Part shown: piece by piece, positions 270-41,296 of the stretch
How positions within the stretch are numbered: position 1 is the stretch's first letter
How the letters are laid out: every line of letters begins with the position of its first letter
Source: an uncultured Verrucomicrobia subdivision 3 bacterium
GTDB lineage: Bacteria > Verrucomicrobiota > Verrucomicrobiia > Limisphaerales > UBA11358
DNA: 41,991 bases
Assembly: GCA_903865745.1 (NCBI GenBank)
Contig: CAIPKV010000001.1
Location: 1-41,991, forward strand
Direction: 5' to 3'
Program-made: the position numbers and the translations under genes
The notes under the pieces: generated by a model
Databases searched by the model: none
Seen by the model: the letters and a program-made list of their open reading frames with translations, nothing else
What the model was told of the DNA's origin: nothing

Positions 270-540
270 TTTCTTACCGACACAGTGAACGTGTCGGTAA
301 GCAAAGCGTCTTAGCAGCGCTGCAAAGTCATCGTGTCGGTCTGCAAGCTCACTTTGCTTACCTGCAAAGTGTCTTTGCAGGTAAGCAAAGTCTCTTTGTT
401 AGTAAGCAAGGCGACCGTGTCGGTCTGCACGGTCAACGAGCAGGTCTGCAAAGTGTCTGAGCAGGTCTGCACGGTCACCGTGTCGGTCTGCAAAGTCGCT
501 TTGCTTACCGACACGTTGTCTTAGCAGGTCTGCAAAATGG
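270..540. repeat. Array 1: 21-nt modular tandem repeat, about 13 units
   Basis: Units of exactly 21 nt run without indels from 270 (unit starts 270, 291, 312, 333 and so on to 522). Each unit is built from a small vocabulary: a first word such as gtgtcggt, gagcaggt, ttgcaggt or ttgcttac; a second word such as ctgcaaag, aagcaaag or ctgcacgg; and a five-base variable tail. Some units are the reverse complement of others, so 352-369 and 373-390 form a perfect 18-bp inverted repeat with a 3-nt loop. Positions 273-283 and 291-301 form an 11-bp hairpin with a 7-nt loop. Both strands stay open in a frame because 21 is a multiple of three (plus 333-524, minus 311-514). The predicted peptides are only heptad repeats with no start signal or domain, so I treat the array as noncoding DNA or RNA. 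Confidence 0.85.
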
Positions 541-32761: not shown

Positions 32762-33075
32762 CCGGTCACAAATCGTCCAGTGTTTGTCATAAAGCGTGGA
32801 GGAAACGTCGCATTGCGTGGAGGGAACGTGACATTCCGTGCAGGGAACGCCTCAATGCGTGCTGCGGTACCCCCTGGCGTGCAGGGAAAGTGACCAAGCG
32901 TCCAGCGTTTGTCGCAAAGCGTGGACGATTTGTAACAAAGCGTTTAGCAGTTATCGCAAAGCGTCCAGCATTTGTGACAAAGCGTGCAGGAAACGGGGCA
33001 AAGCGTGGAGGGAATGTCACATTCCGTGGAGGGAATGAGGCAAAGCGTCCAGGGAACGTGGCATTGCGTGATGGA
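32762..33075. repeat. Array 2: 21-nt modular tandem repeat, about 15 units
   Basis: Units start at 32762, 32783, 32804, 32825, 32846, 32867 and then 32887 to 33055 in steps of 21. The common form is [tttgt or aacgt/aatgt] + [cgc, gac or cac] + [aaagcg, attgcg or attccg] + [tgg, tcc or tgc] + [aggg, agga or agca]. The unit at 32867 is 20 nt, which shifts the frame of any protein, yet the DNA pattern continues unchanged on both sides. An open frame (32740-33258, plus) spans it without any domain. I therefore regard the array as noncoding. The sequence vocabulary differs completely from arrays 1 and 3. Confidence 0.85.
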
Positions 33076-33096
33076 AATGCGACGTTTCCATCGCGC
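33066..33096. repeat. Hairpin closing array 2
   Basis: Arms 33066-33077 (gcgtgatggaaa) and 33085-33096 (tttccatcgcgc) pair over 12 positions with one G-T type mismatch and a 7-base loop. The left arm is the last clear unit of array 2. The 7-base loop is the same size as that of the hairpin at the start of array 1. Confidence 0.6.
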
Positions 33097-33237
33097 ATTA
33101 TGACGTCAACCGTAGTAAAAACGACGTTGGGAGGGCGAAAAACGTCAAAACCGACGGCTTTGACCGTTTCCAATGGGGAAGCTGTACAAAAAATGACAGT
33201 TGAGACCGGCATTCGTCCGGTTGCCAGCGTTCTGGCC

Positions 33238-39933: not shown

Positions 39934-40641
39934 TCAGCCGCAGACGGTGAGGCTCACGGGGGCGCTCCACAAACCGGCTTGCGCCTCATCTATGCGATAG
40001 ATCGCCTTATAAGTCCATTTGGCCGCCACGGCCGGGAGCGTCTGGGTATCGGTGTAGTTGGGGGTGGTATCAATGGTCAGGAACCCAAAACCTTTGCCGT
40101 CGCCGCGATCCACCCAGATTTCGCAACTTGTCAGGTAGGCGGCAAATCCTTGCCAGCTCCATTTGATCACCACCTGCCCGCTCAGCAGCAAAACGTGGAT
40201 GAGCGGCAGCAGTAAGGTTAAATCTGGCGCAACCATCACTGTGCCGACGACGCCCAATTCGGTGGCGGTGGGCTCATCGCATTTCCCACTCATCTTGATT
40301 TGCTGGATGAAGGCGAAAATACGGGTGAGAGAGCCGGGCGGTTGGGGGACGACGCCGGTAGGCATCGCCGGAGCCACGTGGGTATGGAGCACCAAGGGGT
40401 CACTGCCGATGCCGGTTTGCGCGGCGGTGGTGGTCTTCGAGCAACCGGAGGCGAAAGTGGTCACCGAATCAGCCCAATGCTGGAGCACGTAGGCCAGCCA
40501 AAGACACTCCGCCACTATCGCTGCCACCTGCGCGGCGGTCAGACCGAGCAACACAGATTTAGCCGGCAACTTATCGGCAAAGTTCAATAGCCAGGCAATG
40601 CGGTCACCAATGCGGCGTGGATAAAAGTTTTGATGTTTCAT
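39934..40641 (-). CDS. Unrecognised protein with fibronectin-III-like C-terminus
   Basis: This 235-residue protein begins MKHQNFYPRRIGDRIAWLLN. A helical N-terminal half contains LGLTAAQVAAIVAECLWLAYVLQHWAD. A Pro/Thr-rich middle part follows (VAPAMPTGVVPQPPGSL). Residues 165-235 look like a fibronectin type III or purple-acid-type beta domain (CEIWVDRGDGKGFGFLTID, then WTYKAIYRIDEAQAGLWSAP). There is no signal peptide. I recall similar proteins of unknown function in environmental Verrucomicrobia. Array 3 begins about 85 bases upstream, so the array may lie in its promoter or leader region. Confidence 0.75.
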   Translation of the reverse strand: MKHQNFYPRRIGDRIAWLLNFADKLPAKSVLLGLTAAQVAAIVAECLWLAYVLQHWADSVTTFASGCSKTTTAAQTGIGSDPLVLHTHVAPAMPTGVVPQPPGSLTRIFAFIQQIKMSGKCDEPTATELGVVGTVMVAPDLTLLLPLIHVLLLSGQVVIKWSWQGFAAYLTSCEIWVDRGDGKGFGFLTIDTTPNYTDTQTLPAVAAKWTYKAIYRIDEAQAGLWSAPVSLTVCG

Positions 40642-40725
40642 ATTATTATTTGTTTTTGTGTGTTTGTTGTTTGTTTTGTGTTTCGGGTTGACTGTCAGGA
40701 TAAGCTGGCTGGCTTCACGGCATCC

Positions 40726-41040
40726 AAAATCAGCTTCCGCGTTTTAAAAATAGGCTCAAACGGACTCCTTATTGGCTCCAACGGCACCTTTATACACTCC
40801 AACGCCAGTAAAGTTGGCACCGACGCTGGTAAAGTTGACGCCGACGGCAGCAAGGTTGACCCCAACCTTGGAAAAATAAAATCCACCGGTGAAAATATAG
40901 TCGCCAACGCGGACAATGTTGGCTCCAACGGAGGAAATATTGACCTTAACTTTGACAAAGTTGGCGCCAATATGGGGAAAATTCGTACGGACAAAGACAG
41001 TGTTCTTAAGCCAAATGAGGACGTGGGCGTGGAAAAACGT
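40726..41040. repeat. Array 3: 21-nt modular tandem repeat, about 14-15 units
   Basis: Units run in steps of 21 from 40726 or 40747 to about 41040 without indels. The common form is aaagttggc-n-ccaacgg-n3, with variants such as aatattgaccttaac. The plus-strand frame 40630-41214 reads it as heptads of the type KVGSNGx after a hydrophobic start, and the minus strand is open too (40695-41195). The plus start overlaps the start of the minus gene at 40641. I judge the array noncoding, or at most uncertain, because the other two arrays share the period but not the peptide. Nothing else is seen in 40642-41352 except the terminator. Confidence 0.8.
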
Positions 41041-41296
41041 GACGGCGGGCAGTTTTTTAAGAAAAAGGGCGTGGCACTAACTGCGAAGGATGCCGCCGAG
41101 GAAGAAGTTATTTCCGAGTACCACTGTAGCGGGGGTGCGCCGACGCGCGATAAAGAAGTCTCACCCGAAACCCCATGTTCCCTGACCCGCCCCATAAATT
41201 ACTCCGCCCATTAAAGCAACGACCGGAGAGAACTTCTCCCCCTTTCTTGTCTTTCTTCAACCGTCCATTGCTCGCGCCCTCTGTAAAAAAGAAAAG

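Follow-up and report, generated by a model that had tools for sequence, protein, structure and literature searches.

Plasmid iterons and partition-site repeats are tandem protein-bound sites spaced by whole helical turns, and 21 bp corresponds to two turns of B-DNA. BrickBuilt of Porphyromonas gingivalis is described as a minisatellite/MITE with a 23-nt unit, one family being present at 19 loci with a leader, a tail and inverted ends (PMC4596501). Direct repeats of the heptamer TAACTGA, all of one sequence, are reported from Beggiatoaceae, Cyanobacteria and five Bacteroidetes (PMC4679880). The SPADE article contains intergenic heptamers and gives the sizes of CRISPR repeats and spacers as approximately 23-55 and 25-60 bp, respectively (PMC6344855). 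Template-switch loop inversions are described for the stem-loops of RNA genes; they occur by reverse-complement copying between the arms, and the stretch concerned is changed in place (PMC8794818). In a literature search that had most subscription papers and preprints outside it, no description of 21-bp arrays such as those reported here was found.

The window analyzed here is the whole stretch of 41,991 nt, from an uncultured Verrucomicrobia subdivision 3 bacterium. Array 1 (positions 262-542) consists of 13.4 units of 21 nt in a single register, with a dyad-symmetric consensus of approximately TTTGC-AGGTCT-GCAAA-GTCnC. This consensus, TTTGC-AGGTCT-GCAAA plus a five-base linker, is near its own reverse complement. 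The similarity to its reverse complement is 0.85, compared with a mean of 0.39 for permuted columns, and none of 200 permutations gave a value as high. Since the consensus is nearly its own reverse complement, a reverse-complemented unit falls on the same columns. Tandem Repeats Finder returned eight rows at three places in the whole window, six with period 21 and two with period 42. Imperfect direct repeats of about 50-60 nt flank array 1 (60-120 and 597-646); they are 77% identical, and CCGTTTTCCTCACTTCCT is found exactly in both.

The longest perfect inverted pair of array 1, which is absent from the earlier note on this DNA, is formed by the asymmetric whole unit at 288-308 (+ strand) and its exact reverse complement of 21 nt at 497-517 (- strand), inverted in phase. 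An inverted repeat previously placed at 352-369 and 373-390 is real, though its length is 19 bp, not 18 (351-391, arms 351-369 and 373-391, with a 3-nt loop). The 11-bp hairpin noted at 273-301 does have 11 perfect pairs (273-283 and 291-301), which are the inner part of a 15-nt, 93% inverted pair at 269-305. A longer pair of 35 nt at 461-533 is 74% complementary. Eight perfect inverted pairs are 9 nt or longer, and all eight have axis sums congruent to 7 modulo 21; these pairs are therefore in phase, as the earlier note had claimed for units of both orientations. The symmetric consensus is not the whole story. The multi-base departures from it recur in both orientations, with z values of 4.6 for in-phase inverted sharing (0/150 permutations as high) and 4.1 for direct sharing. 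Because these variants recur in phase and in both orientations, beyond what independent columns would give, point-mutation decay of a uniform direct repeat, which the note had named as the finding that would speak against it, does not account for array 1.

Array 1 is a member of a mostly intergenic minisatellite class with a 21-bp unit. The view of it as a local oddity is thus abandoned, as the class is genome-wide. We scanned 762,850 bases, including the window, of the 3,626,501-base genome for periods of 8-60. In this 763-kb sample, 50 periodic segments were found, 43 of which have 21 or 42 as the best period. Among the intergenic-labeled segments the periods are 21 or 42 in 34/38 (25 and 9, respectively), and the remaining four have periods of 14 (two), 18, and 41. 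Coding-labeled segments have period 21 or 42 in 9/12 cases. Array 1 is outside the 34/38 count, being labeled as coding owing to an ORF at 311-514 (- strand) that is open within the array and was accepted by the simple ORF caller with a low score of 29.6. Within the stretches sampled from this genome, an array occurs approximately every 18-22 kb. Arrays are also present in sampled stretches of G014, G034, and G026. From 53 segments of period 21 or 42, 50 arrays of four species (41 from this genome and 9 from the others) were retained for detailed analysis after L017, L025, and L171 had been removed by hand. The tests of hairpin complementarity, substitution types and 10.5-bp share were performed with 22 arrays, the coding or simple-repeat segments L017, L020, L025, and L028 being left out. 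According to the ORF-caller labels, 41 of the 50 arrays are intergenic, and the nine that overlap an accepted ORF (array 1, array 3, L022 12020, L024 2418, L143, L149 3537, L157 4738, L163, and L164) were kept.

The unit length is shared throughout most of the class. The median array is 290 nt long with 13.8 units. Over the 50 arrays, the lag profile peaks sharply at 21 and its multiples, a spacing of whole helical turns. The mean excess identity is 0.294 at lag 21 and negative at lags 7, 10, and 11; a heptamer sub-repeat is rejected, as identity at lag 7 is below expectation. The excess is little reduced with distance (0.294, 0.324, 0.291, 0.292, 0.264, and 0.275 for one to six units). The sequence of the unit is mostly locus-specific, with some consensus types recurring: 17/1225 consensus pairs exceed the 99.9% null level (about 1 expected) and 55/1225 the 99% level (about 12 expected). 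Notable examples are L034/L145 (0.96), L045/L169 (0.92), and L147/L148 (0.87) and, between species, array 1 with an array of G014 (0.78). A search of its own genome with array 1 gave the array itself, in both orientations, plus five weak matches of short length and no second array.

Two other arrays of the window belong to the same class with other consensus sequences. Array 2 (32791-33152) lies between convergent acs-like and hemA-like genes, and array 3 (40710-41004) overlaps a weakly scored ORF at 40630-41214 (+ strand). Elsewhere, in each 21-nt unit of L153 (13356-13552), 12 nt (AAGCGGGAGCTT) are nearly invariant and the other nine bases vary freely. L150 (6817-7149) and L152 (13963-14390) show an apparent alternation of two units to give a 42-nt repeat. 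The same genome also contains a heptamer array, (ATTTTGA)n, at L020 (8401-8557), which is a known kind of intergenic repeat. Along the contigs, the arrays look regularly spaced against uniform placement (CV of 0.54 versus 0.90, 30 gaps). Against intergenic placement, the P values over five thresholds are 0.125, 0.127, 0.100, 0.015, and 0.095, and regular chromosomal spacing is rejected as not robust (P 0.015-0.13).

The consensus is dyad-symmetric in 38/50 arrays at p<0.05 and in 31/50 at p<0.01; the symmetry is missing (p<0.05 test) in 12/50 arrays of the genus. A different, earlier measure gave 16/22. A dyad-symmetric consensus allows a unit or half-unit to be inverted without leaving the register. 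Multi-base variants are shared directly in 25/50 arrays and in inverted form in 19/50 (both p<0.05), counts that internal single-base shifts, such as those in L033 and L137, may inflate. The other 25/50, where direct sharing is nonsignificant, agree with independent columns. Over the 50 arrays, inverted sharing does not favor neighboring units. Conservation is more uneven between columns than expected from uniform decay in 42/50 arrays. Of the differences between units (22 arrays), 38% are transitions, 35% are exchanges of A with T or of C with G, and 27% are the remaining transversions; base composition predicts 33, 34, and 33%, respectively. A 10.5-bp AT/GC component exceeds that of permuted columns in the 50 arrays (z 4.8) and is not found in the nine other-species arrays (z -0.2). 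Its share in array 1 is almost nil (0.02), and intrinsic curvature is rejected as a common cause because array 1 is without this component.

Arrays of the same unit length are found in a distant lineage. Exact-pattern scans gave one isolated match (L182) among 387 genomes of the phylum, none in viral contigs, and three in the genome contig collection; of these three, L037 and L038 are isolated and only L039 is an array. L039 is a locus of a Chitinophagales MAG, with a unit, TTTGCAAGTCTGCAAAGTCAT, that is nearly that of array 1 and is found at two loci there. This genome and P. gingivalis both belong to Bacteroidota. Over 278 kb of it, the period is 21 or 42 in 12/14 intergenic arrays, most of which have unrelated and more uniform units, and L197 (5162-5496) is an array with a 22-nt unit, not 21. 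The dyad-symmetry test is positive for 4/12 of these arrays, and one of the four (L208) has a negative similarity value. We tentatively suggest that young arrays are direct repeats and that symmetry grows by in-place inversions. When array 1 was used as the DNA query against 97 genomes, five including its own matched: G014 has a real array, G022 has a pair of similar palindromes, and the matches in G025 and G038 are short and lie in coding-like sequence. On the 3-kb locus of G022 that carries the palindrome pair (about 1500-1536), there is also an array of 14-nt period (L012, 62-306).

For the sampled stretches, the existence of the class, the unit length and the dyad symmetry have been shown. 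Among tandem repeats, unit length is normally variable. In these two distant bacterial genomes it is instead constant, with a mostly free sequence, and therefore a physical cause is called for. The explanation that we favor, with a little less than an even chance, is that the arrays are helically phased minisatellites acting at the DNA level, whose units are also spread in inverted form and which have a probable protein partner. According to this explanation, arrays would begin as direct 21-bp duplications. The units, in either orientation, would then be mixed by exchange and template switching, which may keep the consensus locus-specific and make it symmetric. The fixed 21-bp length suggests that the double-stranded array is read from one face of the helix. 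The putative reader would most likely be a protein that is dimeric or wraps DNA and has loose sequence requirements. The arrays, if they act at all, would do so as DNA, and repeated half-sites for a protein are one possibility. In favor of this explanation are the prevailing period of 21 or 42, the dyad symmetry, the sharing of variants, the uneven conservation of columns, the equal unit length in the Chitinophagales genome, the 10.5-bp component over the 50 arrays (z 4.8) and the lack of local compensation in hairpin arms. A consensus that mostly differs locus by locus is awkward for a sequence-specific protein. Further points count against the DNA-level reading: the 10.5-bp share of 0.02 in array 1 and z of -0.2 in other species, the 12/50 arrays without dyad symmetry and only 4/12 Chitinophagales arrays with it, the 25/50 arrays without significant direct sharing, the 9/50 labeled as coding, and the spacing that is not robust.

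A neutral origin is nearly as likely as the DNA-level reading, yet neutrality leaves the fixed 21-bp unit unexplained. The arrays could well be minisatellites produced by slippage and template switching with no selected function, 21 bp being a mutational bias. Relatives support it, since no array was found in them at the same place: in loci that extend at most about 1.5 kb past the match, arrays are found in 0/29 beyond the hemA stop, in 0/11 (10 genomes) upstream of the recC-like gene, where some have only 430-630 nt upstream, and in 0/19 by the SASA gene, where L077 is without the 3' flank. At the hemA and recC-like loci, alignment with relatives is confined to the genes, the intergenic array DNA being unaligned. 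Other signals were observed at two of the relatives' loci. In L091 (G026), a different array lies roughly 1 kb off, on the opposite side of hemA, and in L062 (a SASA locus), the far side of the gene gives a weak 12/21-nt signal. The density of arrays varies widely among the sampled species, in agreement with neutrality. The samples from a further 20 species of the genus ranged from 15 to 86 kb (mostly near 20 kb), and those from five genomes of other families in the order ranged from 31 to 40 kb; none of them showed an array, which is weak evidence at these small sizes. The neighboring genes also fit, being of unrelated function and in all orientations. A gene is present on both sides of 19/22 arrays (7 divergent, 9 codirectional, and 3 convergent), with Pfam assignments including hemA, acetyl-CoA synthetase, tRNA nucleotidyltransferase, a recC-like protein, and 8-oxoguanine glycosylase; the 20 neighboring proteins scanned have no common function and include no obvious array-binding candidate. 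The lack of significant direct sharing in half of the arrays (25/50) points in the same direction. Against neutrality, slippage should spread unit lengths, whereas one length prevails in 34/38 and 12/14 intergenic arrays of two distant genomes, and conservation is uneven between columns.

Another reading is that transcripts of the arrays function as tandem RNA hairpins or as the alternative hairpin sets suggested in the earlier note. We consider this improbable, even though both strands of 265-545 fold strongly. The folding energy of the + strand is -141.1 kcal/mol, with shuffled sequences averaging -84.5 (z -12.3), and that of the - strand is -130.0, with an average of -79.1 (z -11.4). Arrays fold better than their column-permuted versions (arrays longer than 420 nt were trimmed to 20 units), with mean z values of -2.01 (+) and -2.07 (-) over the 50 arrays. 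The value is below -2 in 20 (+) and 25 (-) arrays and above 2 in none. However, this excess does not differ between the strands, which is what inverted DNA copies would give. The Watson-Crick fraction within the hairpin (mean of 0.482, 22 arrays) is equal to that with partners one to three units off (0.478-0.487); for array 1 alone, the values are 0.60 and 0.53-0.60. Bases that depart from the consensus are compensated nearby (0.257) in no local excess over those further off (0.263-0.296, 50 arrays). Thus, neither maintenance of the hairpins nor selection on each of them is supported; the data leave room for half-sites that change independently of one another, as they could for a dimeric DNA-binding protein. 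Moreover, no Rfam family matches the window at gathering scores, and gene orientation around the arrays is inconsistent.

An origin of the arrays from mobile palindromic elements such as REPs/BIMEs or MITEs is likewise improbable. Consensus sharing by L034/L145 (0.96) and L045/L169 (0.92) is in their favor, but the consensus mostly differs by locus. One flank is shared in two array pairs, over 82 nt at 77% and over 45 nt at 91%. The former is that of L034 (6608-6863) and L145 (14309-14548) and looks as if it had been co-copied. However, an all-versus-all comparison of 81 array flanks (up to 250 nt) gave no common leader, tail or terminal repeat, and MITE ends are rejected on this basis. Next to array 1, at 556-592, lies a dispersed sequence of about 30 nt with nine matches in the 763 kb, itself included; five lie within 300 nt of four arrays, but four are at least 2.7 kb from any array. 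Y1-transposase genes are present (two matches in this genome and 0-10 in 48 relatives), yet their counts do not track arrays and show no excess: G001 has seven, and no array was seen in its 86-kb sample. A single dispersed palindromic family of the REP/BIME type does not agree with a consensus that mostly differs, nor with the search in which array 1 matched no second array in its genome. BrickBuilt is rejected because the unit is 21 nt, not 23, and a leader and tail with inverted ends were not found. Repeats made by a reverse transcriptase (DGR, retron) are rejected as well, with no RVT_1 match in this genome (G000, 96.95% complete) at E<=1e-5. CRISPR arrays are rejected because the whole unit, 21 nt, is below repeat and spacer sizes.

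Genes, intact or degenerate, for heptapeptide repeats are a very improbable source: 21 nt equals seven codons, arrays 2 and 3 have open frames, and 9/50 arrays overlap an accepted ORF, including 311-514 (-) in array 1, but every one of the six frames is stopped in array 1 (5, 1, 2, 1, 2, and 7 stops, with none open across the whole array), in L022 2447-2841 and in L023, the best-frame coding score is negative in 16/22 arrays, and single-base shifts occur within some arrays.

A broader reading of the arrays is more doubtful than the DNA-level explanation itself. The arrays might be a class of chromosomal elements defined by geometry, not by sequence, and present in two lineages. Each would comprise about 14 units, two helical turns long, whose half-sites work either way and whose consensus is mostly locus-specific, and the resulting nucleoprotein arrays would organize the chromosome or insulate neighboring genes. 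If a protein reads the arrays, they would represent a new way to mark bacterial chromosomes. If there is no protein reader, a mutational process with a step of two helical turns would also be a novelty.

Among the known systems, BrickBuilt resembles the present arrays in having short tandem units at many loci per genome; those loci are intergenic, as are, by ORF-caller label, 41 of the 50 arrays here (PMC4596501). The present arrays differ from that description in their 21-nt unit, their mostly locus-specific consensus, and the lack of common ends. Heptamer repeats are likewise abundant, intergenic and tandem, with one fixed period and a patchy distribution over phyla, and their function is at most suggested (PMC4679880, PMC6344855). 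Their period is 7, and the present arrays are without a 7-nt sub-period. REPs and BIMEs (PMC3733652, PMC2817692) share intergenic palindromic units with the arrays. The orientation alternates in BIMEs. REPs are one sequence family per genome, whereas the present arrays mostly are not and have a fixed 21-bp step. Template-switch loop inversions are similar in that reverse-complement copying alters a stretch in place (PMC8794818). The inverted sharing in the present arrays differs from the process described there in showing no preference for neighbors. Iterons and partition sites resemble the arrays in their tandem sites at whole-helical-turn spacing. Those sites, however, are of one sequence at one locus, whereas the present arrays occupy many loci with mostly different sequences.
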